64,000 bases of DNA from Desulfobacula sp. Lineage in GTDB: Bacteria; Desulfobacterota; Desulfobacteria; Desulfobacterales; Desulfobacteraceae. The stretch is taken from the NCBI RefSeq assembly GCF_030145145.1, contig NZ_JAQYWD010000014.1:1-64000 (forward strand), read 5' to 3'. Every line of letters starts with the position of its first letter. Positions within the stretch are counted from its first letter, which is position 1. Shown here in pieces: positions 40,758 through 63,435 of this stretch. The position numbers and the translations under genes were made by a program. The notes under the pieces were generated by a model, which saw only the letters and a list, made by a program, of their open reading frames with translations, was not told where the DNA came from and did not search any database.

Positions 40758-40789
40758 AATCAAGGAACAAAAGTAAAGGAATCCTTTAA

Positions 40790-40936: not shown

Positions 40937-40987
40937 ACGCAGACTTTTTTAAGATGATATGAAAATTTATGGAATGAAGGAAAATAA

Positions 40988-41233
40988 ATGAAAAAAGAAT
41001 TAACCATTTTTGATAATCCTAAAAATGTTAAGCGGCTTCGCATGGGATTTTTTGTGGCCCTGGTAATGCTCTTGATCGCTGAAAGCTTTGTGGAGATGCA
41101 CGGTTATTTTTCAGTGGAACATTTTTACGGGTTTTATGCGGTTTACGGATTCATTTCTTATGTCCTTTTGATATTTGCTGCCAAGGTTTTAAGAAAAATC
41201 ATCATGCGCAAAGAGGATTATTATGATCATTAA
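40988..41233 (+). CDS. Small two-span membrane protein in Mrp operon
   Basis: An 81-residue protein with two hydrophobic spans (GFFVALVMLLIAESFVEMHG; FYGFYAVYGFISYVLLIFAA) and a basic-acidic tail. GAAGGA is seven bases upstream. Its 3' end overlaps the following D-type subunit gene by 11 bp, suggesting coupling. I do not recognise the family beyond its position in Mrp-like clusters; it may be an assembly or structural subunit. Confidence 0.8.
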   Translation: MKKELTIFDNPKNVKRLRMGFFVALVMLLIAESFVEMHGYFSVEHFYGFYAVYGFISYVLLIFAAKVLRKIIMRKEDYYDH

Positions 41234-45507: not shown

Positions 45508-46871
45508 TAGAAAAAATCCAGTTTAACGGTCAACAGTTTTTCAAGTTTTTTTACGGATTGTTTGACCGCAAACAGGATGATCCGGTCGCCGGGTTTGACA
45601 ACACTCTCGCCCGACGGGATCATGATGTTTCCGTCCCGGATGATGCAGACCAGTATAGATCCTTTGGGGAAAGAGATTTTTTTTAATGGTTTGTTCGTAA
45701 TGCCGGAGGTTTCAAGGGCAATGGCCTCAATAAACTCCCCCCGTTCCCCAAAAATGGAAATATCAGACAGGACCTTTCCTTTTCTGACATATTGCAGGAT
45801 AGAGCTGACGGCTGACAACCTGGGGCTGACCACTTTTTCAATACCAATGGTGGTCAGCAGGGGTAAATAACTTAATTTTCCGATTCTGGTGATGGTATTG
45901 TGAACACCTAAATTTTTTGCCAGCAGGGAAACAAGGATATTGGTTTCATCATCATCGGTAACCGAAACGATGACATCGCTCTGACCGGCGTTTTCTTCAA
46001 GAAAGACTCGCTGGTCAGATCCGTCGCCATGCAGAATAACGGTTTTGCCCATTTGTTCTGACAGATAATGACACCGGTCAATGTCGGATTCAATGATTTT
46101 TGTTTTAATATTATCGGCTTCAAGTATCTTGGCCAGCCGTTCACCGATTCGTCCACCACCGATAATCAAGGCGCTTTGAATGGGTTGCTTTTTTTTTCCA
46201 AAAATTTTGAGTGATTTTTCAAGCTTCGTGGTTTCACAGACAAAATAGATCAGATCTCCGGCCTTCATTTTATTGCTGCCGATGGGGACAATAACGGTAT
46301 TGTTTCTGATGATGGCGGCAATCAATGGCCGGTCTTCACCGAATTTGTCTGGAAAATTAACCAGCTGCATTCCCACAAGGGGAGAATGCTTTTCAAGCTG
46401 GATGCCAATATATTTTACCTGACCATCAATAAAATCACCCACATCAACGGCCCCCGGCACATCCATCAGTTTCCGGATGGTATCAACGACCTCGATCTCA
46501 GGATTGATCACCGTATCAATATATGGGGGCTCATTTTTGAAACGGTCATGATAGGGATCAAAGTCAGCATTTCTGATCCGGGCCAGTTTTTTGGTGGTGG
46601 GGGATATCAGGTTCGTTACCATGCAGGCAACAAGATTTGTTTCATCACTGTCGGTAACGGCCAGGAGGATATCCGTCTCATTGATGCCGGCATCAATGAG
46701 AACCTTTGGAGAACTTCCGGATGCGGTAATTGCCTGGATATCAAGGTTTTCAGAAAGACGACGAATAGCAAACGGGTCTTTGTCAATGACCACGACCCGT
46801 TTGTTTTCAGAAGCGAGTCGGCTGGCAATATTGTACCCGACTTCTCCTGCACCCACAATAATGATTTTCAA
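45507..46871 (-). CDS. trkA: TrkA potassium uptake regulatory subunit (copy 1)
   Basis: A 454-residue cytoplasmic protein with two RCK units. Each has a Rossmann nucleotide fold (MKIIIVGAGEVGYNIASRLA; SALIIGGGRIGERLAKILEA) followed by a TrkA-C domain. It gates TrkH in response to NAD(H) or ATP. The upstream site AGGAG is about 13 bases before the start, longer than usual. Overlaps trkH by one base. Confidence 0.93.
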   Translation of the reverse strand: MKIIIVGAGEVGYNIASRLASENKRVVVIDKDPFAIRRLSENLDIQAITASGSSPKVLIDAGINETDILLAVTDSDETNLVACMVTNLISPTTKKLARIRNADFDPYHDRFKNEPPYIDTVINPEIEVVDTIRKLMDVPGAVDVGDFIDGQVKYIGIQLEKHSPLVGMQLVNFPDKFGEDRPLIAAIIRNNTVIVPIGSNKMKAGDLIYFVCETTKLEKSLKIFGKKKQPIQSALIIGGGRIGERLAKILEADNIKTKIIESDIDRCHYLSEQMGKTVILHGDGSDQRVFLEENAGQSDVIVSVTDDDETNILVSLLAKNLGVHNTITRIGKLSYLPLLTTIGIEKVVSPRLSAVSSILQYVRKGKVLSDISIFGERGEFIEAIALETSGITNKPLKKISFPKGSILVCIIRDGNIMIPSGESVVKPGDRIILFAVKQSVKKLEKLLTVKLDFF

Positions 46872-47191
46872 AAACGATCTCCTGTTACAATTAGAAAAAT
46901 TTGGTCACAACTTACTAAATCAGGGAATGGGTGTCAATCGTTTGAGGCTGCCAGACGTAGGGAAACCCGAAATGATCAGGCGGTTATATCAAAGAATTTT
47001 AAATGCGGGGTATGAATTGGGTTGATTCGATTCCCAGGTGGGTATAGGGTAATGAAGCTTTGGGGGTCAGGCCGTGTTTAATTTGATATTATAGGAATTT
47101 GCATTTAGCCGTTGGCTTTTAGGTTTTTAGCGAACAGCTAATGGCTAAATGCTTGCGCGATAGCGCGCTAAGTTCAATTATTTGGGTACCT
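46872..47191. other. Intergenic region between divergent trkA1 and trkH2
   Basis: 320 bp without a convincing gene. It holds the palindromic repeat element at 47091-47176, which ends just 15 bp before the trkH start. No clear promoter consensus was found. Confidence 0.6.
47091..47176 (+). repeat. Dispersed palindromic repeat element, copy A
   Basis: An 86-bp element closely matching 54730-54822. It begins ATAGGAATTT, contains GCATTTAGCC paired with GGCTAAATGC, and ends with GCGCG-ATAG-CGCGC and TAAGTTCA. It has no coding potential and is found only upstream of trkH2 and upstream of the receiver at 54838. It may be a REP/MITE-like element; other genomic copies would be needed to say. Confidence 0.75.
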
Positions 47192-48646
47192 ATGAATTAC
47201 ACCACTATCGCAAATGTCCTGGGAAAATTATTGATCGTTACTGGTGGCTCCATGGTATTTCCATTGATCTGCTCACTTTATTATAGAGAAGATGACCTGC
47301 CTGCCATTGCCATTACCGGGATCATCACCATGGGTCTGGGGTACCCCTTGTGGTGGTTCTTCCGACGGTATCGGGAGTTGAACATAAAGGACGGCTTTTT
47401 TATTGCTTTTTTTGGATGGGTCCTGATTTCAGCCGTTTCCGGTCTGCCTTTCATGATCCATGGAACGATTCCCTCTTTTACTGACGCTTTTTTCGAGATG
47501 ATGTCCGGCTATACCACAACCGGTGCAACCATACTGACGGATATTGAAGTGGTTCCCCACGGATTATTGTTCTGGCGCAGCCAGACCCATTTGCTCGGGG
47601 GGATGGGGTTTTTAACGTTGACCATTATATTTTTGCCCCATGGCATGGGGGGGGTGCGGATATTCCGGGCCGAGTCAAGTCCTGGTCAGGTCATTACCCG
47701 GGAAAAATTTATTCCCCGCAACCGGGATACAATGGTCTGGCTCTGGGGAATTTATGTCGGGCTGAATCTGGCGGAGACCATGATGCTGTGTCTGGGTGGC
47801 ATGTCTATTTTCGATGCCTTGTGTCATTCGTTCGGAACAGTGTCAACTTCGGGCTACTCTCCGTGGAATGAGAGCATCGGGCACTATAATAATGCCTACT
47901 TTGACTGGGTGATCATTGTTTTTATGTTCCTGGGTGGCATGACGTTTATGCTCTTTTACCACATGGCCCAGGGAAACTGGCATGTCATAAAAATCAATAC
48001 CGAACTTCGATGGTATGTGGGCGCTATGCTTTTTTTCTGCGGAATGGTCTCGTGGATACTGTGGAAGGAAAACACCTATGATCTCATGAATTCGATCCGG
48101 TATGCCACTTTCCAGGTCACCTCTATTTTGACAACCACCGGGTTCACAACAGCAGATTATGAGCAATGGCCCCAGGCAGCACAGATGTTCCTCTATATGG
48201 TGTGCTTTATCGGTGCCTGCGCAGGCTCGACCACCAGTGGCATTAAAATTGTTCATTATATCCTGATATGGAAATTCGGGGTTCTGGCCATCAAGCGCAT
48301 CTTTTTACAACCCATGGCAGTGGTATCGGTCCGTTTGAATCAGCGTCCAGTGGACGTTCAAATTATTCATCTGGCGATTTGTTATTTTATTGTCAATATT
48401 TTTCTGGTGCTGGCCGGGGGGTGTTTCATGACCCTGGTGGATCAAATGGATTATACGACTGCCATGAGTTCGGTGATCGCAACACTGATGAACATCGGCC
48501 CGGGATTTGGCGGGGTGGGCCCAACAGAAAACTATGCCTTTATTTCGGATGCGGGCAAATGGTTTTTATCCTGGAATATGCTGGTCGGCAGGCTGGAAAT
48601 GTTTTCGGCCCTGGTCATCTTTTATCCGTCTTTCTGGCACCAATAA
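47192..48646 (+). CDS. trkH: TrkH potassium uptake channel subunit (copy 2)
   Basis: A 484-residue TrkH-family channel with pore segments GYTTTGATIL, GTVSTSGYSP, TTTGFTTADY and IGPGFGGVGP. Sequence differs clearly from the copy at 44056. The ATG at 47192 is chosen; an in-frame extension to 47141 would start inside the dispersed repeat element and is unlikely. The ribosome-binding site is weak (GGGTACC). Convergent with the trkA gene downstream, with six bases between stops. Confidence 0.92.
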   Translation: MNYTTIANVLGKLLIVTGGSMVFPLICSLYYREDDLPAIAITGIITMGLGYPLWWFFRRYRELNIKDGFFIAFFGWVLISAVSGLPFMIHGTIPSFTDAFFEMMSGYTTTGATILTDIEVVPHGLLFWRSQTHLLGGMGFLTLTIIFLPHGMGGVRIFRAESSPGQVITREKFIPRNRDTMVWLWGIYVGLNLAETMMLCLGGMSIFDALCHSFGTVSTSGYSPWNESIGHYNNAYFDWVIIVFMFLGGMTFMLFYHMAQGNWHVIKINTELRWYVGAMLFFCGMVSWILWKENTYDLMNSIRYATFQVTSILTTTGFTTADYEQWPQAAQMFLYMVCFIGACAGSTTSGIKIVHYILIWKFGVLAIKRIFLQPMAVVSVRLNQRPVDVQIIHLAICYFIVNIFLVLAGGCFMTLVDQMDYTTAMSSVIATLMNIGPGFGGVGPTENYAFISDAGKWFLSWNMLVGRLEMFSALVIFYPSFWHQ

Positions 48647-48652
48647 ATGGTT

Positions 48653-50059
48653 TCAGGCCAGGAATAATTTTTGAACATCTTTCAAGTGCTGGGACATACA
48701 CACGACGATGGCCCGCTCATTGCCTTGAATGTGGGTGTCTCCCACGGCAACCTGCCATATCCCGTCTCTATGGATGCTCCCGATCATTATTTTCCCATTG
48801 TAATACGGATTCAGTTTGAAAAGGGGCTTGCGGGTAATGGGGGAATTAGGGGCGGCAACGATTTCCACCATTTCGGCATCAAAACCATGCAGATGTGCCA
48901 CCGAAAGCAGCTCTCCCCGGCGAATGAATTTTAGAATCTTGTTACCGGCCAGGATTTTTTTGTTCAACGCCAGATCGGATCCCATTGTGGCTGCCAACAC
49001 CACATAATCTTCTTTGTTAACCAGTGCAATACATTTTGCCTGCTTGTTGTGTTTCAGGTTACGATGCGAGGTCATCAGGTGTTTGGCCATTACGCAGCTC
49101 ATGATATTGGTTTCGTTTTCACCCGTGGCGGTGATAAATGTATCCATTTCCAAAAGGCCGGCTGAAACCAGCACATCTGAATCCGATCCATCACCGTGTA
49201 AGATTTCTGTGTTTTTCAATGCAAAAGAGAGTTCTTGAGCCACGGTTTCATCTTTTTCGATGAGTTTGACTTTGACGGTTTTGTCTAATAGCTCCGCCAG
49301 ACGGCATCCCACGAGTCCTCCTCCGATAATCATGACCCGGTGGTGTTTTTGCCGTTCAACCCCTGTCAGCGTCATCAATTGGGTGAGGTTCTCGTTATCC
49401 GCCATAAAAAAGGCTTGATCCTGGGGCAACAGTTCATCCTCTCCGTTTGGGATCAGCGTGGTGATCCCCCGGGCAATGGCAACGATTCGGAAGGGGAATT
49501 CATTGTACGCCTGGGAAATATCCTTGAGCTTTCTGTGGGCCAGGGGGGATTCATCGGGAATCCGGGTGGCCATGGCCAGTATTTGACCCCTGGCGACCTC
49601 AATGATATCGTTTCCGGCCCGGAGTTTAATCAGTCTGAAAATTTCCTGTGCTGCCAGCTCTTCCGGATGGATAATCAGGTCAATTTTAAGGTCCCTGGCA
49701 TTCAGGATGGAATCTTCTCTCCCGAACTCGGTGAAGCGCACCCGGGCGATTTTCCGAGGAATGCCAAAGCGATCGCCAATCAGGCAACTCATCATATTCA
49801 CGGCATCATTGTTGGTCACTGAAATGAGATAATCCATGTTTCCGGCACCGGCTTCCCGCCAGCATTCGAGGCTCATGGCATTGCCCTGGATCAAGCGGGC
49901 ATCTATATTCCCGTCGGCGTGGCGAAGCAATGCGGCATCCTGCTCAATGACGGTGATGGCATAGCCTTCGTGAACAAGGCGCTTGGCCAGGTAATACCCT
50001 ACCCCTCCCAACCCCAGAATAAGGATGCTGGTTGATTTTGCCGGTTTATTTCCATACAT
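48653..50059 (-). CDS. trkA: TrkA potassium uptake regulatory subunit (copy 2)
   Basis: A 468-residue TrkA with two RCK units (SILILGLGGVGYYLAKRLV; HHRVMIIGGGLVGCRLAELL). Starts are uncertain: ATG at 50059 is taken, but TTG codons at 50071 and 50068 are closer to a purine-rich GTGGAAG. Paired convergently with trkH2, an unusual arrangement compared with the overlapping trkA-trkH of copy 1. Confidence 0.9.
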   Translation of the reverse strand: MYGNKPAKSTSILILGLGGVGYYLAKRLVHEGYAITVIEQDAALLRHADGNIDARLIQGNAMSLECWREAGAGNMDYLISVTNNDAVNMMSCLIGDRFGIPRKIARVRFTEFGREDSILNARDLKIDLIIHPEELAAQEIFRLIKLRAGNDIIEVARGQILAMATRIPDESPLAHRKLKDISQAYNEFPFRIVAIARGITTLIPNGEDELLPQDQAFFMADNENLTQLMTLTGVERQKHHRVMIIGGGLVGCRLAELLDKTVKVKLIEKDETVAQELSFALKNTEILHGDGSDSDVLVSAGLLEMDTFITATGENETNIMSCVMAKHLMTSHRNLKHNKQAKCIALVNKEDYVVLAATMGSDLALNKKILAGNKILKFIRRGELLSVAHLHGFDAEMVEIVAAPNSPITRKPLFKLNPYYNGKIMIGSIHRDGIWQVAVGDTHIQGNERAIVVCMSQHLKDVQKLFLA

Positions 50060-50356
50060 GGTATTCAACAACTTCCACTTTAAAAAAACGATAACCAGAA
50101 AATGGACAGCAGATCCGAAAAGCCTGTTTTAACGTTTTTAAGGATAATAGAGGGGAGCATTATTTTCTAAAAAAAGCCCCTTTGTAAAAAAATATATAAA
50201 AGATGCGCTTGTTTTTGTCAAGAAATATGCCTTTTCCCCGGACAATCGCATGAAACTTTCACACGCGGTTGCCAAGATAGGGTGAAATGGTGGTCTCCCC
50301 CGGGAAGCAATCGGGTAAATTACAAACTGGGTATGGGGTCGCATATGGTTTTCCTG

Positions 50357-50551: not shown

Positions 50552-52597
50552 ATGGAAAATATCAACATACTGCTGGTGGATGATGAAGAAAGATTTCTTT
50601 CTACTACCCAAAAGCTGTTGGAAAGAAAAGGCTATACTGTTCATACTGCCCCAAATGGCATGGCCGCCTTTGAACGACTGAAAAATCATCATATTCAGGT
50701 GGCTATTTTAGATGTCAAACTGCCGGGCATGGACGGCATTGCCATCTTAAAGAAAATCAAACGGGATTTTCCCTTGATTGAAGTCATTATGCTCACCGGC
50801 CATGGTACAGTGGAATCCGCAGTAGAGGGGGTTAAATTAGGGGCGGCAAATTATCTGATAAAGCCGGCGGATATTGATGATATCTCAGAAAAGATTCAAG
50901 AAGCCCTGGAAAAAAGACAAACCATCAGCGCACAAAGCGATAAACGGAAAGCCTATTTTAAAAAACTGAAATTTCGACTGGGGGTTGGACTCCTGGCCGC
51001 TTTTATGCTGCCCTATGCCGCATTTTTTGCCTATTTTCAATTTCAGTTCACGGCAACACTGAAAAATACCGGACGACTCAATCTGGAAGCGCTTTCAAAC
51101 AGCCAGAAAAATACGGTTGATCTTTTTCTACAGGAACGGGTGGTCAATATTTTCAGCCTTTTCCACAGCATTGATTTCAGTCTTAACCCCTCCCAGAATA
51201 ACATGCAAAACTACTACCAGGATTTACGACAGGTGAGTGACGCCTTCATCGATGTCGGCTTCCTGAATACAAAGGGTATTCAGATAGGATATGCCGGGTC
51301 CTTCCCCTACCTCAAGGGAAAAGATTACAGCAATGAAAACTGGTTTAAAACATTGCTGAATCAGGAGCGGCATTATTATATCAGCAATATTTATCTTGGA
51401 TTCAGGGAAAAAGCACACTTTACCATTGCCGTCCGGCAGATCATTGATGGGAACCCTTATATTATGCGGTCCACCCTTGACCCGGACAAATTTTATATGT
51501 TTTTGAGATCCATTAGCCGGGGAAAAGAGGTTGAATCCGCCTTGATCAATAAAGAAGGACACTATCAAATCGTCGATCCGGACAGGGGTGAGTTGCTTGG
51601 CAAGAGCGAGTATATCCCGCCGGAAAATATTGAATCGGGCGTAACGGAAATTAACCGAAACGGTGATGCCATCCTCATTGGCTATGCATGGTTGAAAGAA
51701 ACGCCCTGGGCATTGATTGTCCGGCAGCCGCTGAATATTGCCCACGCAGGGATGTACCAGAGCCGGCGGTTCATGAGCATTATCCTTGCGGTTATCTTTT
51801 TGGGGATTGCAGCCGGGATATGGTTTGCCAATGGCAGGCTCATAAACCATGCCCAGGGTGCTGCCGAAAAAAGTGATGAGCTTCGGCACCAGCTTTTCCA
51901 TGCATCAAAGCTTGCCTCTGTCGGTGAACTGGCAACCGGGGTGGCCCATGAAATTAACAATCCCCTGGCGATTATCGTAGCAACCAGCGGGGTGATCCGT
52001 GATTTGCTGGATCCTGAATTTAATCTTCATCCAACCCCTGAAGATATCATAAAAGAGATTGATACCATTGATTCTGCAGCGTTCAGGGCCAGAACCATCA
52101 CCAAGCAGCTGCTGGCCTTTGGCCGTAAGAATGAGCCAAAGCTGCTGCCCTGTGATGTGAACCAGGTTCTGGATGACGTCATAAGCGGGTTCAAAGAACG
52201 GGAGTTCAAGGTGGCGGATATTGAAATTATTCGTGATTATGACCCCGGCCTGCCGGAAATCATGCTGGATCATGACCAGATTCGACAGGTTTTTTTAAAT
52301 CTCATCAATAATGCAGGGGATGCGATTTCAGGCCCGGGGAAAATCACCGTGTCCACCCATAGAAAGGATCAGGACATCCATATCATGATTAAAGATACGG
52401 GGAAAGGAATGTCTGCCGAACAACTCAGTGAGGTGTTTAACCCGTTTTTCACTACAAAGGAAGTCGGAAAAGGCACCGGACTTGGCCTGAGTGTTTCTTT
52501 GAACATTGTGGAAGCCCTGGGGGGGACCATTGATGTTCAGTCTTTAGAGGGCGCGGGAAGTTCCTTTACAATATCGTTTCCCATTCACAGAGCGTAA
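50552..52597 (+). CDS. Membrane histidine kinase with N-terminal receiver and Cache sensor (module 1)
   Basis: A 681-residue protein. An N-terminal receiver (1-120: LLVDDEE, acceptor Asp in VAILDVKLPGMDG near 53, MLTGHGTV, IKPADID) precedes the first membrane span (about 147-172). The periplasmic sensor (about 175-400) is Cache-like (NENWFKTLL, YYISNIYLGF, TIAVRQII). After the second span come HisKA with GVAHEINNPLAII (near 465) and HATPase (LNLINNAGDAI, DTGKGMS, GKGTGLGLSV). It is a paralogue of the kinase at 55808, which lacks the receiver. Starts after GGAAGGG; 47 bp before the REC-transporter gene. Confidence 0.92.
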   Translation: MENINILLVDDEERFLSTTQKLLERKGYTVHTAPNGMAAFERLKNHHIQVAILDVKLPGMDGIAILKKIKRDFPLIEVIMLTGHGTVESAVEGVKLGAANYLIKPADIDDISEKIQEALEKRQTISAQSDKRKAYFKKLKFRLGVGLLAAFMLPYAAFFAYFQFQFTATLKNTGRLNLEALSNSQKNTVDLFLQERVVNIFSLFHSIDFSLNPSQNNMQNYYQDLRQVSDAFIDVGFLNTKGIQIGYAGSFPYLKGKDYSNENWFKTLLNQERHYYISNIYLGFREKAHFTIAVRQIIDGNPYIMRSTLDPDKFYMFLRSISRGKEVESALINKEGHYQIVDPDRGELLGKSEYIPPENIESGVTEINRNGDAILIGYAWLKETPWALIVRQPLNIAHAGMYQSRRFMSIILAVIFLGIAAGIWFANGRLINHAQGAAEKSDELRHQLFHASKLASVGELATGVAHEINNPLAIIVATSGVIRDLLDPEFNLHPTPEDIIKEIDTIDSAAFRARTITKQLLAFGRKNEPKLLPCDVNQVLDDVISGFKEREFKVADIEIIRDYDPGLPEIMLDHDQIRQVFLNLINNAGDAISGPGKITVSTHRKDQDIHIMIKDTGKGMSAEQLSEVFNPFFTTKEVGKGTGLGLSVSLNIVEALGGTIDVQSLEGAGSSFTISFPIHRA

Positions 52598-52644
52598 TGA
52601 AACAAACCATAAATTTATTCACATTTTAATCAAAAGGAAGGGCT

Positions 52645-54720
52645 ATGGAAGAGCAAAAAATAGCAAATGGCAATAATGAAAAACGAACAGTATTGCTGGT
52701 CGATGATGAAGATCGGTTTCGGGAGAACCTGGCAAAGCAGTTATCCCATAGGGGGTTTCATGTCCTTGCTGCAAGCAACGGTGAAGACGCTATAAAAATA
52801 GTCCGTCACAATAATCCGGAAGTGATCATTCTTGACCAGAAAATGCCCGGTATGGATGGTATTCAGACGTTAAAAGAAATTAAAAAAATCAGGCCTGAAG
52901 TCCAGGTCATCATGCATACCGGCCATGGCAGCATCGAATCGGCCCGGGTTACCGGGAAATTCGATGTATTTTCCTATCTGGAAAAGCCTTGTGCCATTGA
53001 TGAGTTAACCAAAGAGATCATGGCAGCCAGTAAGGAACGCGTTTATGCAATGGCCCGGAATGAAATCCCCGACGTCCAGGGAACCAGTCTTAAGAATTGG
53101 CTGGTCGGGGTGCAAAACGCCCGTCCCGGAGTGATTATTTTGGGCGCGATTCTTTTTATGGCCATGGTGTTTATCCCCACCCCCCAGACATTGACGGGCT
53201 TTTTGTCTGTAAAAAAAACCGGCAATCTCAGTGAAAGTATTGCCGGATATTCAGACTATCGAAAAATGGAAAAAGGCCAGACAATTGTCGAGTATTATGG
53301 GAAAACCGCAAATTTGTATACGCAAACAAAAAATTCAGACGGGACCGTCATCAAAACAGCTCCCGGGGTGGACAAGGTCGCGTTCAGGGCCAAAGTCATG
53401 ATCGGCGTCCTGATCGTCGCTGCCCTGTTCTGGGCCACCGGCGCCGTGCCCATCGGTATTACCGCTCTTCTTGTGGGCGTGTTGATGTATTTTTTCGGAA
53501 TTTTTCCCCCCAGCATGGTGGCAAAAGCCTATGCAAAAGATTCGGTTATTTTTATTTTCGGTGTTCTTGCATTTGCTGCAGCCATCAGTAAAACCGGTCT
53601 GGATCGACGGATCGGCATTCTTCTGCTGGGCACCAGCACCTCCCTTCGTAAATTTGCCCTTATCTTTGCACCGCTTCTGGCGGTGACCGCAGCTTTCCTT
53701 TCCGAGCATGCACTGGTGGCATTTATTGCGCCGATTTTAATGCTGGTATATATGGGAACCATTAAAACAGCCGGTATCAAAAAGGATAAGGGGTTGATCG
53801 TAATGCTCCTTTTAATGCTGACATTCTGTGCAAATATCGGCGGTCCGGGATCACCTGCTGCCGGCGGTCGTAATGCCGTGATGCTGGGGATTTTTTCAGA
53901 CTATGGGATCAGCATCTCCTTTGGTCAGTGGGTCAAGATGGGTCTTCCCTTTGTTCCGGTCATGGCCCTGGCCATTGCAGCATATTTTCTTATCGTTTTC
54001 CGGAAAAAGATTACGGTTAAAAATGTCAATATTGCAGCAGCAGTCAAACGGGAAGGAGAAAAAATCGGTAAAATGACACCGGATGAATATAAGGCTGCCG
54101 GTGTTTTGATCCTGGTGATTGTTTTGTGGGTTACCTTTTCCAGCAAGGTGGGGATGGGCGGACCGGTTATTTTATGTCTGGTCCTGTTAAATATCCTGGG
54201 CATCCTTCGCTGGAAAGACATCAACAGTATCCATTGGGATGTTGTGGCGCTTTACGCTGCCGCCAGTGCCATGGGCGTCGGCCTGGCCTCCACCGGGGCT
54301 GCGCTCTGGCTTGCCAACAGTTTTATTTCCATCCTCCCGGATGCATTAACCCGGGGAACCGGACTGTGCATGTCCACCAGCTTTATCACCGGCATTCTCA
54401 CCAATTTTATGAGCGACGGTGCCACGGTGGCTGCTGTCGGACCCATCACCGTACCCATGGCCACGCTTTCAGGAACACCGCCGCTGATGGTAGGCCTTGC
54501 CACTGCATTTGCCTCTTCTTTTGCCCACATGCTGATCATTGGTACCCCCAATAATGCCATTGTATACAGTATTGCCAGGGATCCTGAAACAGGTGAGCAG
54601 CTGGTGACAATGAAGGATTTTTTAATTCATGGGTCTGCTGTTTTTTTGATCAGTATGGCAGTGCTGTGGGTATGGGTATTTTTCGGTTACTGGCAATGGC
54701 TTGGCATCGGCAGTATGTAA
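52645..54720 (+). CDS. Receiver-domain fusion to SLC13/DASS-family anion transporter (module 1)
   Basis: A 691-residue fusion. Residues about 14-125 form a complete receiver: LLVDDED, acceptor Asp in IILDQKMPGMDG near 63, HTGHGSI, Lys in YLEKPC. A span (about 150-170), a 75-residue extracytoplasmic loop and about ten further spans follow, of the SLC13/DASS class. Divergent signature motifs are NIGGPGSPAAGGRN and NFMSDGATVAAVGP, matching the second transporter at 58016. No DNA-binding domain is present. It probably imports a divalent anion, with sulfate a candidate in a sulfate reducer. Direct phospho-control of transport is a hypothesis from the fusion. AAGGAAGG precedes the start. Confidence 0.9.
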   Translation: MEEQKIANGNNEKRTVLLVDDEDRFRENLAKQLSHRGFHVLAASNGEDAIKIVRHNNPEVIILDQKMPGMDGIQTLKEIKKIRPEVQVIMHTGHGSIESARVTGKFDVFSYLEKPCAIDELTKEIMAASKERVYAMARNEIPDVQGTSLKNWLVGVQNARPGVIILGAILFMAMVFIPTPQTLTGFLSVKKTGNLSESIAGYSDYRKMEKGQTIVEYYGKTANLYTQTKNSDGTVIKTAPGVDKVAFRAKVMIGVLIVAALFWATGAVPIGITALLVGVLMYFFGIFPPSMVAKAYAKDSVIFIFGVLAFAAAISKTGLDRRIGILLLGTSTSLRKFALIFAPLLAVTAAFLSEHALVAFIAPILMLVYMGTIKTAGIKKDKGLIVMLLLMLTFCANIGGPGSPAAGGRNAVMLGIFSDYGISISFGQWVKMGLPFVPVMALAIAAYFLIVFRKKITVKNVNIAAAVKREGEKIGKMTPDEYKAAGVLILVIVLWVTFSSKVGMGGPVILCLVLLNILGILRWKDINSIHWDVVALYAAASAMGVGLASTGAALWLANSFISILPDALTRGTGLCMSTSFITGILTNFMSDGATVAAVGPITVPMATLSGTPPLMVGLATAFASSFAHMLIIGTPNNAIVYSIARDPETGEQLVTMKDFLIHGSAVFLISMAVLWVWVFFGYWQWLGIGSM

Positions 54721-54729
54721 TTTAATCGT

Positions 54730-54822
54730 ATAGGAATTTGCATTTAGCCGTTAGGTTTTAGGTTTTTAGCGAACCGCTAATGGCTAAATGCTAAAAGCTC
54801 GCGCGATAGCGCGCTAAGTTCA
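54730..54822 (+). repeat. Dispersed palindromic repeat element, copy B
   Basis: A 93-bp element nearly identical to 47091-47176, with a few extra bases (CTAAAAGCTC region). It starts ten bases after the transporter stop and ends just before the AAAGGA ribosome-binding site of the receiver gene at 54838. Arms GCATTTAGCCGTTAG and CTAATGGCTAAATGC pair at 14 of 15 positions, with inner stems TTAGCG/CGCTAA and GCGCG/CGCGC. The stems could attenuate transcription into the receiver gene. Confidence 0.75.
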
Positions 54823-54837
54823 GAAAGGAATAATATC

Positions 54838-55326
54838 ATGGGAAAAAAGCGAATAAACCTTCTCATCGTGGATGATGAAGAACAGTTTTTGGGATCCATC
54901 AGCAAAAGTCTGGAATTAAGAGATTTTAATGTGATTGCCGTGAATAGAGGTGAAAAGGCCATTGAGGCGGCCAAAAAAAATGCCATTGATATCGCCCTTG
55001 TGGACCTGAAAATGCCGGGGATATCCGGCGAAGAAACGTTAAAACGCCTTAAACAGGAACATCAATGGATGGAAGTGGTTATCCTTACGGGTCACGGTGC
55101 CATTGATTCTGCTGTTGAGTGCACCAAAAGCGGTGCCTATTCTTATCTTCAAAAACCCTGCGGCCTGGACGAACTGCTTGAAACCCTGCAGGCTGCCTAT
55201 AAAAAGAAAGTCATGAACAAGCAGCAGATTGAAGAAAAAAAGATGAACGAATTGTTAAATATCTCCATCTCCAGCAGCCCCCGGGAGATTCTTCGCAAGT
55301 TAAGAGATATGGACAAAGAGGGCTGA
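54838..55326 (+). CDS. Stand-alone receiver with SPREIL tail (module 2, first)
   Basis: A 162-residue receiver: LLIVDDEE, acceptor Asp in IALVDLKMPGISG, LTGHGAI, Lys in YLQKPCGLDEL. It most resembles the receiver fused to the transporter at 52645 (shared KPC-x-x-DEL). The tail (about 125-162) contains SSPREILRKLRD, a motif also in the receiver at 57539. AAAGGA is at 54824, directly after the repeat element. No DNA-binding domain, so it may act on a protein, perhaps the transporter. Confidence 0.88.
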   Translation: MGKKRINLLIVDDEEQFLGSISKSLELRDFNVIAVNRGEKAIEAAKKNAIDIALVDLKMPGISGEETLKRLKQEHQWMEVVILTGHGAIDSAVECTKSGAYSYLQKPCGLDELLETLQAAYKKKVMNKQQIEEKKMNELLNISISSSPREILRKLRDMDKEG

Positions 55327-55552
55327 TTTCAGTTCACAACAGGTATGGGTGTTTCTCTGGCAGGTCTGTCAAAGAAACGCCGTATCTGTAGCTAAATACG
55401 GATGGTCAAGCACCTTGATATCCTCCCAGATGCCTTCCCACAGATGATTCCCCAGACACACAGTTTTCCCGGCACTTTCTTTTCAGATATTTTTTTGGCG
55501 TAACAGGGGACATGATTTGTCGGTCACTTCTAACAATTATTTCCTGTCGCCG

Positions 55553-55594
55553 CAACTTTCGGGGTTGGCCATTAAAGCTGGAGACCGAAAGTTG
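55553..55594. promoter_or_regulatory. Inverted repeat CAACTTTCGG
   Basis: CAACTTTCGG (55553-55562) and CCGAAAGTTG (55585-55594) are exact reverse complements with a 22-bp spacer, 134 bp before the sigma-54 promoter. It could be an activator site or a hairpin ending the receiver transcript. Confidence 0.45.
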
Positions 55595-55603
55595 GGCTGT
55601 TGA

Positions 55604-55623
55604 TTTACAATTTGAAAAAAAAA
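55604..55623. promoter_or_regulatory. TTTACAATTTG motif, candidate enhancer site
   Basis: TTTACAATTTGAAAAAAAAA shares its first 11 bases with the inverted repeat at 50357-50377; a shortened copy (TTTACAATTAAAAAAAG) follows at about 55656. All lie 70-130 bp upstream of a sigma-54 promoter, as the module-1 copy does. Confidence 0.45.
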
Positions 55624-55727
55624 CTGACATGTGCTGACCCTTGTCCGTTTTTCCATTTACAATTAAAAAAAGAAAAAATCGTCTATATTTCGGTAAGTTA
55701 AAATTTTTTATGCCCTGAGCATCAAAT

Positions 55728-55743
55728 CGGCATCATAGTTGCT
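55728..55743 (+). promoter_or_regulatory. Sigma-54 promoter, module 2
   Basis: CGGCATCATAGTTGCT has GG and GC ten bases apart and a perfect TTGCT; the first T of the consensus is a C. It is 65 bp before the chosen kinase start and only 20 bp before an alternative TTG. Confidence 0.68.
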
Positions 55744-55807
55744 CTTAGGGGATTAAAGAGGTTTGGATGAGGTATCGTGTCAAAATAACCATAAAATTGA
55801 TGAGCGC

Positions 55808-57517
55808 ATGATGAATGGAAATAATCAAAACCATAAGAAAAAAGAACCCCGGGTTAAACGATCCATTTTAACCAATATGATCATTGTCCCCTTTATTCCA
55901 TTTTTATTGGCCATTGGGGTCAGTTTTTATTTTTTCACCACAGCACTTGAAAACAAAACAGTCAACACGTTAAAACGAATCGTCCAGGATCATTGCGATA
56001 TGATTGAGTCTTTCCTGGTAGAACGCACGGCAGATCTTGAACTGATTACCAACACCTATAGTTTTGAAGACATTAACGCCACTGAAGCCATTCATACCAT
56101 ATTTAAAAATTTAAAAGACCGGTCAAGCGCGTTTGTTGACCTGGGACTCTTTGACTCCCAGGGGATTCACATAAGGTATACCGGTAAGTACCCGTTGAAA
56201 GGAAAAGCGTATAAGAACGAAGTATGGTTTAAAAAAGTCATGCAGACCGGTTATTATATCAGTGATGTCTTTTTAGGGTATAGAAACGTTCCTCATTTTA
56301 TTATTGCGGTGCGGCAGGATAGAGGGAGTACCCCCTGGGTGCTCCGGGCAACCATTGACACGCTGTTTTTTGATACCCTGGTATCAAAAGTGAGAATCGG
56401 AAAGACCGGGGAAGCGTATATTTTAAATAAAACCGGAATTGCCCAAACCCTCAGGCGGTCTGGGGGCATTGGGCTTCTGGAAAAAGATCATGAATTTTCC
56501 GGGTTTCCCAAATTGGAAAACAGCATTCATACCTTTATTAAATCAGATGCTGCAAAGGACAAACATGTGTATGCCACCACCTGGCTTAAAAACAGGGAAT
56601 GGCTCCTGGTGGTTCGGCAGGAAAAGCGAGATGCGTATAAATATTTCTATTCAGCATTATATATCAATATACTGATCATGGTCATCGGTGGGGCGATTAT
56701 CATCATCATTGCCGTCTATACCACTGAACATATCCTTAAACGGATCGCGCAGCTGGGAATGGAAAAGGAAAGCCTTGGCAATCAGCTGATCCGGGCGACC
56801 CAATTGGCTGAAATCGGGGAGATGGCCGCTGGGTTTGCCCATGAAATCAATAATCCCCTGCAAATCATTAAAAGTGAATATACCCTGATCGAAACGCTTT
56901 TCGATGATGTCTTCAGTAAAGACGAGGCCTCAGAGAATGAAGACATAAAGGATATTGAGGAGTCATTGGACCAGATAAAACTCCAGGTGAACCGATGCTC
57001 GGAAATCACCCATGCCATTTTAAAATTCGGACGTAAAAATGAAATAAAAAAACAAGTGTTACACCCGTTTGTCATTATCCCTGAAATTATCCGGATGATA
57101 GAAAAAAAAGCAATGGTCAGTGGTATTGAAATTGTTCAACATATTTCAAAAAAGGTCCCCGGGTTTATGGGGGATCCATCCCAGTTTCAACAGGTGATCC
57201 TCAATTTGTTGAATAATGCCATGGATGCCATCCAGGAACGGCACGGTTCATCCGGGGGGCGCCTGACAATAGAGGTCTGCAGGAAAAATGAATATATAGT
57301 TGAAATCAATATCACGGATAACGGCATCGGCATCAGTCCGGAAAACATTGAAAAAATATTTTCTCCTTTTTTCACCACAAAGCCTGTGGGCAAAGGGACA
57401 GGACTTGGGCTTTCGGTTTGTTTCGGCATTATAGAAAATTTTGGTGGGACCATGGACGTAAAAAGTCAACTAAATATCGGCACGACCTTTGTTATAGGCC
57501 TGCCGGTTAACCATTAA
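55808..57517 (+). CDS. Membrane histidine kinase with Cache sensor (module 2)
   Basis: A 569-residue kinase. Spans at about 19-40 and 288-310 bound a Cache-like periplasmic sensor paralogous to that at 50552 (KNEVWFKKVM, YYISDVFLGY, IIAVRQDRG). HisKA has GFAHEINNPLQII near 343; HATPase has LNLLNNAMDAI, DNGIGIS, GKGTGLGLSV. No receiver domain. The start is uncertain: ATG at 55808 or 55811 is taken; the frame is open to TTG at 55763, where the ribosome-binding site would overlap the start. Next is a receiver 21 bp later, then a transporter. Confidence 0.88.
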   Translation: MMNGNNQNHKKKEPRVKRSILTNMIIVPFIPFLLAIGVSFYFFTTALENKTVNTLKRIVQDHCDMIESFLVERTADLELITNTYSFEDINATEAIHTIFKNLKDRSSAFVDLGLFDSQGIHIRYTGKYPLKGKAYKNEVWFKKVMQTGYYISDVFLGYRNVPHFIIAVRQDRGSTPWVLRATIDTLFFDTLVSKVRIGKTGEAYILNKTGIAQTLRRSGGIGLLEKDHEFSGFPKLENSIHTFIKSDAAKDKHVYATTWLKNREWLLVVRQEKRDAYKYFYSALYINILIMVIGGAIIIIIAVYTTEHILKRIAQLGMEKESLGNQLIRATQLAEIGEMAAGFAHEINNPLQIIKSEYTLIETLFDDVFSKDEASENEDIKDIEESLDQIKLQVNRCSEITHAILKFGRKNEIKKQVLHPFVIIPEIIRMIEKKAMVSGIEIVQHISKKVPGFMGDPSQFQQVILNLLNNAMDAIQERHGSSGGRLTIEVCRKNEYIVEINITDNGIGISPENIEKIFSPFFTTKPVGKGTGLGLSVCFGIIENFGGTMDVKSQLNIGTTFVIGLPVNH

Positions 57518-57538
57518 TAAGCATTAGGGAGATTGGGT

Positions 57539-57991
57539 ATGAGAAAAATGAAAATTATGCTGGTGGATGATGAGGTGCGTTATCTGAAAACAACCCGCAA
57601 ACTGATTGAAAAAAAAGGGGTTGAAACCATAACGGCTCAAAGCGGACGAGAGGCCCTTGAAAAACTTAAAACACAAACCGTTCATGTGGTGATTCTGGAT
57701 GTCAAAATGCCCGGGATGGATGGAAATGAGACCCTAAAGGCCATCAAGGCCCTTTATCCGCTGGTGGAAGTCATTATGTTGACCGGGCATGCCACTGTGG
57801 ATTCCGCCATTGACGGTCTGAAATCAGGGGCTTGCGACTACCTGATGAAACCCGCGGATATTGATGAAATCATTGAAAAAGCGATTGAGGCGTTTGAAAA
57901 ACGGCAACGTCTTGAGGAAAAAATCAGGATCGCACAATCTAAAAAATATATGCGATCGCCTCGTGAAATTCTCAAAGACGAAGAAGAATAG
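57539..57991 (+). CDS. Stand-alone receiver with SPREIL tail (module 2, second)
   Basis: A 150-residue receiver: MLVDDEV, acceptor Asp in VVILDVKMPGMDG, LTGHATV, Lys in MKPADIDE. It most resembles the receiver fused to the module-1 kinase (shared KPADID and VEVIMLTGH). The C-terminal tail ends RSPREILKDEEE, the same SPREIL motif as the receiver at 54838. AGGGAGAT lies eight bases before the ATG at 57539; a TTG at 57533 is not favoured. 24 bp before the transporter. Confidence 0.88.
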   Translation: MRKMKIMLVDDEVRYLKTTRKLIEKKGVETITAQSGREALEKLKTQTVHVVILDVKMPGMDGNETLKAIKALYPLVEVIMLTGHATVDSAIDGLKSGACDYLMKPADIDEIIEKAIEAFEKRQRLEEKIRIAQSKKYMRSPREILKDEEE

Positions 57992-58015
57992 ACGATTAAT
58001 AGTGGAGGTTGATGA

Positions 58016-59863
58016 ATGAAAAAAGAAAAGCAGGTCACAGGGTATGATAAATATATCAATTGGAAAATTTTTATTGTTCCGGTTGTCCTTTTGGTTGCGG
58101 TTTTATTGATGCCAACCCCTTATGGAATGAAGGATGTCGGGACTGAATTCAAGGTCGCTCCTAAGGCGGTGGTCAATCATATCACCAAAGCCTTATTTGA
58201 TGTCAGCAGTTCTGATGCGGAACAATGGCAGTTGCTCGTTGCCAAGATGATGGAACAGAACATGCGGATGGGCGCGTTGCAAAAAGAACGTTTCATGAAG
58301 CGAAATGTCAAATGGTGTAAAAAAAATAAGATTGAGGCCAGCCAGAAAAACTTTGATAAAGCCCATGACTATATCAAAATAAATGTGGACGATAATCAAT
58401 TTCTGCAGATCATGGACGCTGCGTTAACGCTCAGAAAAGAAGGCCTTAAATATGAAGACCTGACAGGAACGGATAAAAAAGCGGCGGACAAAGGGGCCTG
58501 GCATATAAAAGTGGCCATTGGCATGGGCTTGTTTGTTGTGGCCTGTTTTTTAACCGAATGTATTCCCCTTCCCGCGGTTGCATTTTGTATCGGCCTGATC
58601 CTTGTGTTCACCGGCGTGATTTCAAGACAAGAAGTGGCCATGCTCTATTGGAGTGATGCCTGCTGGTTTATCATGGGCAGCCTGATGTTTGCAGCCGCCT
58701 TTGTCAAGACAGGTGTTGACAAACGGGTCTGCATGGCCATGTTCAAAAAACTGGCTGTCCCCAATACCAAATGGATCACCCTGATTTTCTTTTTGATCAT
58801 CTCACCTTTGGCTGCATTTATATCGGATCATGCCCTGGCCGCTATGTTCCTTCCCATTGGAATGCTGCTATACCAGAACAGCCTGACCCGGGAAGTTCCC
58901 GAAGACAAGGAACTGGCAAAGCTTTTGATGATCAGTATTGCCATGGCCTGCAATATCGGTGGGCCTGGCGCACCTTCCGGCGGGGCCAGGAATGTGATTA
59001 TGATGACGTATTTGACGGATATGTTTGGGGTTGACATAGGCTATTTCCAGTGGGTGACCTATTGTTTTCCCTTTATCATCGTGATGATTCCCATTACCTG
59101 GTTTATTAGTAATCTGCGGTTCAGGCCTAAAATTGTCTCCCTGGCCCCGGCCATGGATCAATTAAAGATCGAAATTGATAAAATGGGAAAATGGAACGGA
59201 AAGCAGATATGGGCATTGGTCATATTTATCATCATGGTGTTTGGATGGTTTACGGAAAAAGCATTCTTTAATATGGGGATTTATCCCATTCGGCTGGGAA
59301 TAGGTGTCATTGCCGTGGCAGGTGCGGTGGGCTATATCCTGACCGGGGTGGTCAACTGGCGGGATTACCAGGATAAGGTGGATTGGGGGGTTGTCTGGCT
59401 GTATGCCGGTGCCATCATCTTTGGGCGGACCCTGGATCAGACCGGTGCTGCCTATTGGCTGGCGCGATCCGTCATTGAGTTTTTATCACAGTTCGGCATG
59501 GAATCCGGCCTGCCCTTGATGATCGTCAGTAATGGACTGACATCCATCCTTACAAACCTTATGGCTGATGGGCCTGCTGCCGCTTCTGTGGGACCCATTG
59601 CCCTGAACATGGCGGGTATGGTTCATCCCGGGACCAGTTATCTGCCGTTCATGGCCATGGCCACTGCCATTGCATCGTCCTTTGCCTACTGCCTGATTAT
59701 TGGCACGCCGCCCAATGCCATTGTTTACGCCAGTGGATACCTGGAGCCCAAAGATTATCTCAGGGTGGGGATTCCCATTTTTTTCGTTGCCAATATTGTG
59801 CTGCTGTTTATGACCGGTGTTTTCTGGGCCTTCAGGGGATTTGGTACAATGCCGGGATTTTAA
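58016..59863 (+). CDS. SLC13/DASS-family anion transporter with large external domain (module 2)
   Basis: A 615-residue transporter with no receiver. One span (about 14-32) is followed by a 130-residue helical extracytoplasmic segment (from GTEFKVAPKAVV to about TGTDKKAADKG) and about ten spans. Motifs NIGGPGAPSGGARN and NLMADGPAAASVGP match the transporter at 52645, placing both in one divergent SLC13 branch. DASS proteins in sulfate reducers have been proposed to import sulfate; the substrate is not fixed here. Starts after GGAGG. Probably co-transcribed with the upstream kinase and receiver. Confidence 0.9.
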   Translation: MKKEKQVTGYDKYINWKIFIVPVVLLVAVLLMPTPYGMKDVGTEFKVAPKAVVNHITKALFDVSSSDAEQWQLLVAKMMEQNMRMGALQKERFMKRNVKWCKKNKIEASQKNFDKAHDYIKINVDDNQFLQIMDAALTLRKEGLKYEDLTGTDKKAADKGAWHIKVAIGMGLFVVACFLTECIPLPAVAFCIGLILVFTGVISRQEVAMLYWSDACWFIMGSLMFAAAFVKTGVDKRVCMAMFKKLAVPNTKWITLIFFLIISPLAAFISDHALAAMFLPIGMLLYQNSLTREVPEDKELAKLLMISIAMACNIGGPGAPSGGARNVIMMTYLTDMFGVDIGYFQWVTYCFPFIIVMIPITWFISNLRFRPKIVSLAPAMDQLKIEIDKMGKWNGKQIWALVIFIIMVFGWFTEKAFFNMGIYPIRLGIGVIAVAGAVGYILTGVVNWRDYQDKVDWGVVWLYAGAIIFGRTLDQTGAAYWLARSVIEFLSQFGMESGLPLMIVSNGLTSILTNLMADGPAAASVGPIALNMAGMVHPGTSYLPFMAMATAIASSFAYCLIIGTPPNAIVYASGYLEPKDYLRVGIPIFFVANIVLLFMTGVFWAFRGFGTMPGF

Positions 59864-59884
59864 TCAATTTTTCAAACGGATGCT

Positions 59885-60040
59885 ATGATGAAGAAACAAC
59901 AAAACATTAAAAAGACAAAATCAAAAAAAATAATAATGGAAAACGGAAAATTGTTTTTCACTAAAGAAACGGAACGGAAAATCCTTTTCTTTATGACAGT
60001 CATCATGCTGTTTGTCGGCTTGGTGGTAAAACTGGTATAG
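59885..60040 (+). CDS. Small single-span membrane protein downstream of transporter
   Basis: A 51-residue frame beginning MMKKQQNIKKTKSKK and ending with one span (ILFFMTVIMLFVGLVVKLV). The N-terminal half is strongly basic. It starts 22 bp after the transporter stop, with a weak GGAT site upstream. It may be a small accessory subunit of the transporter. No family is recognised; the case rests on position, hydrophobic span and charge pattern. Confidence 0.5.
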   Translation: MMKKQQNIKKTKSKKIIMENGKLFFTKETERKILFFMTVIMLFVGLVVKLV

Positions 60041-60095
60041 CCCGGGATATGCACATGAGGGATTCAGACAAAGATATCCAAAGGAGCGTGCGATT

Positions 60096-60620
60096 ATGTT
60101 GGAATCAAATTTAAAAATCTGGCAGTTTTACTCTTATTCTCTGATTCAGCTGTTGATTGAGCCCGGTCAGTTTTTCAAGGAACTGCCAGAGAAGACAACA
60201 GTGAGAAAAACAGTGGGGTTTATGATGATTTGCTGTGTTTTTTTCACCATTGCAAGCCTTTTAACCGGGGCATATGCCAAATCCGGTTGGGTAATGGCCA
60301 TTATATTTTTTGCCAATGCCGCAGGAATGATAGTCATTTCATCGGGGTTGGGGTATATTGTCATGGTCATTATTCTGGGGAAACGCACCTCTTTTTTCGT
60401 TATTTTCAGTCTGTACGTTTTTTCATCCGGGGTAACCCTTTTTTTGTCATGGCTGCCGTTTCTCCTATGGGTTACTGAACCGTGGAAGTGGTGGTTGATA
60501 TACACAGGGTTTAAAACTGCGTGCCAATTTACCGGGAAACAGGCATTGCTGATCCTGCTGGTTTCCATGACGATTCAGTTTTTTTTACTCTATTCGGCAG
60601 CTATAGCATTCGTTAATTAA
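60096..60620 (+). CDS. Yip1-domain-like membrane protein
   Basis: A 174-residue protein with five spans. The start motif LIEPGQFFKELPEKTTVRK is typical of the bacterial Yip1 family, whose role is unknown. AAAGGAG is nine bases before the ATG. It lies 55 bp after the small membrane protein and 67 bp before the REC-CBS gene, so could belong to either unit. Confidence 0.8.
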   Translation: MLESNLKIWQFYSYSLIQLLIEPGQFFKELPEKTTVRKTVGFMMICCVFFTIASLLTGAYAKSGWVMAIIFFANAAGMIVISSGLGYIVMVIILGKRTSFFVIFSLYVFSSGVTLFLSWLPFLLWVTEPWKWWLIYTGFKTACQFTGKQALLILLVSMTIQFFLLYSAAIAFVN

Positions 60621-60687
60621 AAGGATAACACCCGATACGATTACGTAAACAGTATGAAAAATGCTGATCAATAAGGAGATAATAATA

Positions 60688-61590
60688 ATGACCCAGAAAA
60701 TAAAAGTATTAATGGTGGATGATGAAAAACGGTTCAGGGAAACGACCAAAAAAATATTGATGAAAAAAGGATTTGAAACCCTTCTTGCAGAAACGGGAGA
60801 GGAGGCCCTGGAAAAAATTGATCAGAACCCGGATGTGGTTATTCTGGATATTAAAATGCCGGGAATGGATGGTCATGAGACGCTCTCACGAATAAAAAAA
60901 ATCAAACCGGATCTACCGGTGATCATGCTGACCGGACACGGGGGGATGCCGTCGGCAAGAGAGGCCCTTGTGGAAGGGGCATTTGATTACCTGAGCAAGC
61001 CCTGTGATATTGATTTTCTATCCGATAAAATCAAAGAGGCCTGTCGCCAGCCAAACGCATCAGCTGACGTTGAAGAAAGACCGGTGATATCGGTCATGAT
61101 ACCGATCACAGAGTATTCCAGCATCAATGAAATGAAAACCATACAGGATGCCATTAACGAGTTGAAGAAATCGTTTATTACAAAAATGGCAACAACCCAA
61201 CTCATGGAAACCGGTCATCGATCGATTCTTGTGACGGGAAATAACGATGAGGTAAAAGGCATTTTAACCATTCGGGATCTGCTGGAAATGGTCATGCCGG
61301 GCTACCTTTCCGCACCCAAGCCATCCCTGGCAGACAGTATTGAATATTCCCCCATGTTCTGGAAAGGCATGTTCACCAAGGGAATTGTGGAAAAGAAAAA
61401 TATATGCATGAGTGATGTCATGAGTCCCTCTCCTGTTTCCATTGACGGCAGGTCCAACCTGATGGAAGCGGCATACCTCATGATTTATAAAAATGAGAGA
61501 CGGCTGCTGGTTACAGTATCCGACGAAATTGTGGGGGTGATAAGAGAGCAGGACCTGTTTTTTGAAATGGAAAAAATTTTAAATTCCTGA
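60688..61590 (+). CDS. Receiver fused to a CBS-domain pair
   Basis: A 300-residue protein. Receiver at 1-125: VLMVDDEK, acceptor Asp in VVILDIKMPGMDG, MLTGHGGM, Lys in YLSKPCDID. The remainder carries two CBS domains (about 140-215: MKTIQDAINELKKSF, RSILVTGNNDEVKGILTIRD; about 245-300: MSDVMSPSPVSIDGRSNLME, DEIVGVIREQDLFFEMEK). This links phosphorelay input to a nucleotide-sensing module. AAGGAGAT lies eight bases before the ATG at 60688. A strong terminator follows. Confidence 0.88.
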   Translation: MTQKIKVLMVDDEKRFRETTKKILMKKGFETLLAETGEEALEKIDQNPDVVILDIKMPGMDGHETLSRIKKIKPDLPVIMLTGHGGMPSAREALVEGAFDYLSKPCDIDFLSDKIKEACRQPNASADVEERPVISVMIPITEYSSINEMKTIQDAINELKKSFITKMATTQLMETGHRSILVTGNNDEVKGILTIRDLLEMVMPGYLSAPKPSLADSIEYSPMFWKGMFTKGIVEKKNICMSDVMSPSPVSIDGRSNLMEAAYLMIYKNERRLLVTVSDEIVGVIREQDLFFEMEKILNS

Positions 61591-63141: not shown

Positions 63142-63435
63142 ATGAAGCAGGTCCAGTCAAAACCAAAACCAAAACGTAAAAAAATAACGTTTTCTATTGA
63201 GGCGGCAGTGGCAAAAGAGGTGATTTTGATGGGAGATTTTAATCATTGGAAACCCAATCAGCACAAGATGAAAAAAGACAAACACGGATCATGGATCAAA
63301 TCCCTTATCCTTCCTCCCGGGAAATACGAGTATAAATTTTTAATTGATGGCGAGTGGAAAGAAGACCCCCAAAATCCCCAGATGTGTTCAAATTGTTTTG
63401 GGACCGTAAACAGTGTTGTTACCTTGCCTGCCTGA
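63142..63435 (+). CDS. Stand-alone CBM48/AMPK-type glycogen-binding domain protein
   Basis: A 97-residue protein comprising little more than one CBM48 domain: VILMGDFNHWKPNQHKM, SWIKSLILPPGKYEYKFLID and GEWKEDPQNP. It lacks any catalytic domain. In AMPK beta subunits and debranching enzymes this module binds alpha-glucans. Its place between two USPs and after a CBS-ACT gene is reminiscent of AMPK-like energy-sensing parts, but that is analogy only. AAGGAG lies 11 bases upstream of the start. Confidence 0.88.
   Translation: MKQVQSKPKPKRKKITFSIEAAVAKEVILMGDFNHWKPNQHKMKKDKHGSWIKSLILPPGKYEYKFLIDGEWKEDPQNPQMCSNCFGTVNSVVTLPA

Follow-up and report, generated by a model that had tools for sequence, protein, structure and literature searches.

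What does a receiver domain do when the rest of its polypeptide is a transporter? The question is raised by an open reading frame at 52645..54720 in the 64,000-nucleotide stretch of Desulfobacula sp. DNA analysed here (positions 1 to 64,000 of contig NZ_JAQYWD010000014.1, termed the window), where the fusion gene and the cluster around it are encoded on the forward strand. The frame is open over 691 codons and its product is a complete receiver followed, in a single frame, by a DASS/SLC13 transporter. The receiver domain comprises residues 15–126 (52687..53022) and matches the Pfam family Response_reg (PF00072) at residues 16–125 with an E-value of 2.1e-27. The transporter core comprises residues 235–687 (53347..54705), assigned by Foldseek and by Pfam Na_sulph_symp (PF00939, E-value 4.8e-40), and is also matched in part by the CitMHS model (E-value 1.3e-36). 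Between them lie a linker of residues 127–160 (53023..53124), with recurrent R(N/H)EIP and NARPG motifs in an alignment of 37 fusions, and the first transmembrane helix, residues 161–176 (53125..53172), placed by AlphaFold secondary structure and a hydropathy peak at 161–179. Neither a third domain family nor any other output domain was detected by Pfam at an E-value of 0.001; REC and DASS are the only families present, in agreement with the initial annotation, which had described a receiver joined to a transporter with no DNA-binding or enzymatic output.

A frameshift or missed stop in 52645–54720 was considered and rejected. The initial annotation had itself named a stop or frameshift between the two halves as a finding that would speak against the fusion; instead, the frame is open, the residues of the phosphorylation site are invariant among homologues, and the same fusion is intact at 49–91% identity in other genomes, which is why we do not regard it as a frameshift artefact. 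The initial annotation had also proposed looking for the same domain pair elsewhere, and the pair was found in genome samples taken at the level of family, order, class and phylum within the host phylum, and in a scan of named genomes. At the level of the order, a near full-length fused match (E ≤1e-75; near full-length defined as query residue ≤15 through ≥686, counted by hand from the table) is present in 32 of 389 genomes, from 15 family codes, and matches in G040, G165, G355 and G390 are shortened or split over contigs. The family search gave a near full-length fusion in 6/86 genomes, with the G040 copy cut by a contig end (E ≤1e-45). Every fusion row of the class sample (389 genomes, E ≤1e-150) was already in the order set, and the phylum sample (E ≤1e-90) gave fusions in three of 395 genomes, of which one, G581 (79%), lies outside the order. 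Two matches that span the query, G356 in the order search and G536 in the phylum sample, are separate REC and DASS genes and were not counted as fusions. The named-genome scan returned 16 loci at 60–89% identity, titled Desulfobacula, Desulfosarcina, Desulfatitalea, Desulfobacteraceae, Desulfobacterales, Deltaproteobacteria and others, with one Myxococcales; REC and DASS share one ORF at all 16, one of which is cut by a contig end.

From these searches 45 REC–DASS ORFs were extracted, and removal of eight duplicates left 37 non-redundant sequences, among which one is truncated by a contig end. The loci of these eight duplicates were also dropped from the gene-order counts and from both trees. 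Apparent in-frame TAG or TAA codons in G249, G199 C553, G312, G182 and G147 were rejected, as the DNA gives intact REC–DASS ORFs (G199 C553 was read through L045, matched by isolate and contig number).

The receiver half has the receiver fold with an acidic pair, a phospho-acceptor aspartate, the Thr/Ser position and the lysine. Its modelled fold matches receivers such as PDB entry 3crn (Foldseek TMt 0.88). D20 and D21 form the acidic pair, Thr92 and Lys114 complete the phosphorylation site, and D20, D21, E22, D64, T92 and K114 are identical in 37/37 fusion ORFs of the alignment. The acidic pair, aspartate and lysine had been recognized beforehand, the last two with numbers that were one off; the residues are present, and the true positions are Asp64 (52834–52836) for the phospho-acceptor and Lys114 (52984–52986) for the lysine. 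Across the 37 fusions the mean majority-residue frequency is 0.78 in the receiver, 0.67 in the linker and 0.80 in the DASS core. The receiver dN/dS is 0.067–0.087 in the four of six pairs with unsaturated dS, values that are rough because dS in these pairs is about 0.9–1.6; the DASS half of the fusions likewise shows low dN/dS.

Fourteen receiver positions are specific to the fusions, being conserved in ≥85% of them and in ≤15% of 228 other receivers taken from the same loci. Among them are Q65, which adjoins the phosphorylation site, and the three residues T103, G104 and D107, found in 92–97% of the 37 fusions and in 0–1% of the 228 others. Three of the fourteen (T103, G104 and D107) fall in the α4 region, which belongs to the switch face of receivers; this region is our own assignment, as the modelled helix covers only residues 97–102 and residues 98–108 have low AlphaFold confidence. 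The other positions are spread over α2 (four positions), loops and elsewhere.

The AlphaFold model, built from 24 window and locus sequences (mean pLDDT 77, pTM 0.67), shows the receiver, a long α5, TM1 at residues 161–176 and the DASS core. Confidence falls below 50 at residues 139–147 and 156–158 of the linker, and the path of any coupling between the halves is modelled with low confidence there. The best Foldseek matches of the transporter half are human NaS1, a sulfate transporter (PDB entry 8y5w, E-value 1.3e-16, TMt 0.73), NaCT (8uvb, TMt 0.81), VcINDY (6okz, TMt 0.76–0.80) and NaDC. The fusion thus has the DASS fold that it shares with human NaS1 and NaCT and with VcINDY, and among family models PF00939 scores above its cut-off; TIGR00785 spans the whole DASS core but, with 177.3 bits, falls short of its 198.6-bit cut-off.

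The fusion differs from NaS1, NaCT and VcINDY in its N-terminal receiver and in the motifs of the transport site, where SEHA and SDGA stand for SNT and AGGRN for the first PPN site. In the alignment with VcINDY, the positions of the two SNT sodium-site motifs, neither of which the fusion retains, are occupied by SEH and SDG, and GGRN stands at the first PPN site. SEHA, which replaces the first SNT motif (53701..53712), is present in 36/37 fused rows and 37/38 rows of the unfused sister group; AGGRN, with Arg409 (53860..53874), in 37/37 and 35/38; SDGA, which replaces the second SNT motif (54412..54423), in 37/37 and 37/38; and GTPNN, which is TPPN in VcINDY (54541..54555), in 36/37 and 35/38 (the 37 fused rows of this comparison include one duplicate pair, L051 and L139). 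Because these motifs are as fixed in the fusions as in the unfused sister group, the transporter core looks active and unaltered by the fusion, and their identity in the two groups counts against a dead transporter. More widely, the DASS groups of these clusters carry SEHA/SDGA, SDHA/ADGP, HDAA/ANVA, AHTA/MNVA and a few other pairs instead of SNT, and nearly all of their DASS rows share an arginine at the first PPN site. SNT was absent at either place among the motif types listed for the other DASS groups, the nearest being SNSA in one row. Ion coupling in the DASS groups of these clusters may therefore differ from that of VcINDY, and with the SNT motifs replaced, both the coupling ion and the substrate of the fusion are uncertain.

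By analogy with its family context, sulfate is the likely substrate. For Desulfobacterium autotrophicum, the available text of PMC5840216 reports high expression of HRM2_38230 under 100 μM sulfate. An assignment that would equate HRM2_38230 with a 44% identical unfused relative in G057, whose gene order fits the tags HRM2_38230, 38270 and 38300, was set aside, as it is no more than a fit and this relative departs from the fusion motifs and carries SGHA, GDGV and AGGWN in place of SEHA, SDGA and AGGRN.

The fusions make up a single clade. In a tree of 116 transporter domains, they form one side of a branch with SH-aLRT 99, with one change of state; 38 unfused transporters stand next to the fusion clade, and among the 36 distinct fused rows no unfused row lies inside it and no reversal is seen. 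This tree was built by a quick method under LG+G4, with a midpoint root for drawing, and excludes rows cut by contig ends and rows shorter than 440 residues; a program warning was raised for long rows, including the fused row L111. In a tree of 137 of 265 receivers from seven context groups, which has few columns and long branches, the fused receivers need two changes. On average they are 36–46% identical to the other receivers in these loci, depending on the context group.

Gene order was compared in loci that were picked by transporter similarity, not by receiver content, and whose rows share ancestry; the upstream neighbour was readable for 34/37 fused and 71/77 unfused DASS genes. If REC alone, REC-CBS and longer regulators are all counted, 49/71 unfused DASS genes and 1/34 fusions have a receiver gene on the same strand no more than 300 bp upstream; if only receivers shorter than 200 residues are counted, the figures are 34/71 and 1/34. 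Part of the receiver–DASS adjacency is background, given the high density of receivers in these loci: a receiver gene also precedes 107/679 of the other genes found there (85/679 for receivers shorter than 200 residues). A kinase gene, by the same distance and strand, is directly upstream of 30/34 fusions as against 4/71 unfused DASS genes. Taken together, the gene order suggests a direct fusion, from [kinase][REC][DASS] to [kinase][REC-DASS].

The same adjacency is what a chance event would draw on: receiver and DASS genes are often near neighbours in unfused relatives, and loss of a stop could join two co-transcribed genes neutrally or as an artefact. A fusion present in 32/389 genomes, confined to one clade, with no reversal seen and with every site residue invariant is hard to reconcile with such an origin, which we regard as highly improbable.

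The kinase upstream in the window (50552..52597), which the initial annotation had singled out as a natural partner, ends 47 bp before the fusion gene, and the association recurs in the 30/34 fusions counted above. It has the architecture REC-TM-dCache-TM-HisKA-HATPase (Pfam) and an H-box reading HEINNP. Its dCache_1 match is just below its own cut-off (44 versus 45 bits), hydropathy peaks at residues 143–161 and 407–425 flank the Cache region, and this region gave no sequence match among solved structures at an E-value of 0.1. HEINNP is present in all 30 kinases directly upstream of fusions and is of the HExxN form, which in kinases of this class is associated with phosphatase as well as kinase activity. 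A receiver ahead of the first membrane helix (REC-TM-Cache-TM-kinase) is found in eight of these 30 kinases. In the remaining loci, the upstream gene is a non-kinase in 3/37 fusion loci and none is annotated in 4/37.

These features lead us to a reading, to which we give a probability of roughly two in three, in which the fusion is a membrane response regulator with the transporter as its output, and the adjacent kinase phosphorylates the receiver and so alters uptake. We infer the phosphotransfer, the control of transport and its sign, the substrate and the membrane sidedness of the fusion as follows. The periplasmic Cache domain of the kinase would sense a small external solute, perhaps sulfate, and the kinase would add phosphate to Asp64 or remove it through its HExxN motif. 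The N terminus of the fusion is presumably cytoplasmic, by homology to VcINDY, and the receiver would therefore be on the kinase's side of the membrane. It would hang by the conserved linker on the cytoplasmic end of TM1, and its phosphorylation would alter how fast the DASS core takes up anions, with sulfate as the most likely substrate. The natural guess for the sign is that high-affinity uptake is switched off at high sulfate, because over-accumulation must be avoided, as discussed in the available text of PMC5840216. There, sulfate reducers are said to stop high-affinity uptake at sulfate concentrations of at least 1 mM, saving energy and avoiding over-accumulation (citing Stahlmann 1991). 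Such control would suggest that cells adjust the transporter itself, beyond merely changing its amount, and the separate receiver genes beside other DASS genes would then probably act in the same way in trans.

Information could in principle flow in the opposite direction, with the conformation or flux of the transporter altering how the receiver takes up or retains phosphate, and thereby reporting to the kinase and to downstream receivers. Receiver genes within 300 bp downstream in 27/37 fusion loci would allow phosphate to be shared; in the window, a REC-only response regulator of 162 residues (54838..55326, Pfam) is directly downstream of the fusion. The conserved transport motifs fit either direction, and a receiver is usually the last phosphate acceptor of its pathway, which counts against a reporting role. 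Transporters that inform a two-component module are known from the SLC5/STAC sensor kinases CbrA and CrbS (available text of PMC7096432, PMC13022988 and PMC5715377), which like the fusion combine transporter and two-component module on a single chain, and the transporter–kinase fusion CbrA has been called a transceptor in print (PMC13022988, in the part available). In CbrA and CrbS, however, the transporter is on a kinase, as its input, whereas in the window it is on a receiver and would be the output; no kinase catalytic domain is present on the fusion chain (Pfam). We therefore consider a transceptor role unlikely.

The main reading, that of a receiver acting on a membrane protein, has a precedent in Myxococcus xanthus, where EpsW, a phosphorylated single-domain response regulator, acts directly on the membrane enzyme EpsZ (PMC12802240, in the part available). 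Unlike the fusion, which is one chain, EpsW and EpsZ are two proteins, and EpsZ is a sugar-phosphate transferase, whereas the target in the fusion would be the transporter. Phosphorylation gating transport, as the initial annotation had suggested, is from the sequence comparisons what we would take as the best-supported reading of the fusion.

The cluster at 50552–61590 contains, further downstream, a second kinase of dCache-HisKA-HATPase architecture (55763..57517, Pfam); a REC-only response regulator (57533..57991, Pfam) upstream of an unfused DASS paralogue of 615 residues (58016..59863), which is 37% identical to the fusion over the core; and a REC-CBS-CBS protein (60661..61590, Pfam). The paralogue was considered as a further fusion, in a frame of 780 residues, and rejected, as the DNA has true stops between the receiver at 57533 and the DASS gene. 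The REC-CBS-CBS protein is a second receiver with a non-DNA output, one that possibly reads the adenylate level. Receiver proteins of about 300 residues, similar in length to it, adjoin DASS genes in many related loci.

The cluster thereby comprises five receivers and two kinases, and receiver-only proteins that act as phosphate sinks are known. The receiver of the fusion might likewise drain phosphate, or hold the kinase near the transporter as a membrane anchor, and leave transport unchanged. A sink, however, has no need of a covalent link to the transporter kept through a whole clade, nor of receiver residues conserved specifically in the fusions, and we consider this account quite doubtful.

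No DNA-binding domain was detected by Pfam in eight proteins scanned between 50552 and 61590. Among ten proteins scanned from neighbouring clusters, nine have a receiver, and two of these nine are sigma-54 activators with a Fis-type HTH; promoter control therefore exists nearby. Further clusters of this kind are found in the same genome, at G000:C67:67900-83700 (L080, L081) and G000:C63:53300-62400 (L082). A receiver-only gene precedes each of their three DASS genes, and two NtrC-like sigma-54 regulators are also encoded there.

Just upstream of the cluster, within 35098–42995 and 44056–50071, the window encodes subunits of an Mrp-type Na+/H+ antiporter as well as two sets of TrkH/TrkA-like potassium-uptake proteins (Pfam assigns both TrkA proteins and one TrkH; the other TrkH was assigned by similarity). 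The Mrp, Trk and DASS genes together suggest one region for ion homeostasis and Na+-driven uptake. At 63142–63435, a stand-alone AMPK1_CBM/CBM48-like protein of 97 residues is encoded between a universal stress protein gene and its look-alike.

Related clusters have been described. According to the available text of PMC11887813, DASS sulfate-uptake clusters of Desulfobacteraceae (Dvar_38230, Dvar_38430), in 26 species, comprise Cache kinases, regulators and CBS proteins. The model proposed there leads from sulfate sensing to the formation of transporters, with regulators 'of the WalR type' and CBS proteins as a second level; the legend of its figure names promoter interaction of regulators and putative protein–protein interactions, without specifying which. 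The window locus resembles these clusters, by gene content alone, in combining DASS, Cache kinases, response regulators and CBS proteins, and differs from the model, in which regulators act mainly through expression, by having a receiver inside the transporter. The words 'fused', 'fusion' and 'receiver' are absent from the main text of PMC11887813. In PMC5840216, the available text gives protein lengths of 474–691 residues for DASS group Cii of sulfate-reducing microorganisms. The upper value is the length of the window fusion and of its G055 homologue, so the fusion may be included in that data set; 'receiver', 'response regulator' and 'fused' have no occurrence in its main text. Among the literature matches listed, supplements being outside the search, there is no receiver fused to a DASS protein or to another secondary transporter. 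Two known kinds of system are combined here, response regulators with non-DNA outputs and transporter–signalling fusions.

The fusion is a real architecture, conserved within one clade in sulfate reducers, and it puts a transporter where a response regulator has its output. With evenly balanced confidence, we propose that sulfate reducers control the uptake of their respiratory electron acceptor post-translationally, with receivers acting on DASS transporters in cis, as here, and in trans for the unfused proteins. If this is true, much of the two-component machinery in these clusters would not be fully covered by the published, expression-centred model. The fusion offers a single-protein system in which to test whether the high-sulfate switch works on the transporter itself, and its prediction extends to the more numerous DASS genes that have a receiver gene upstream.
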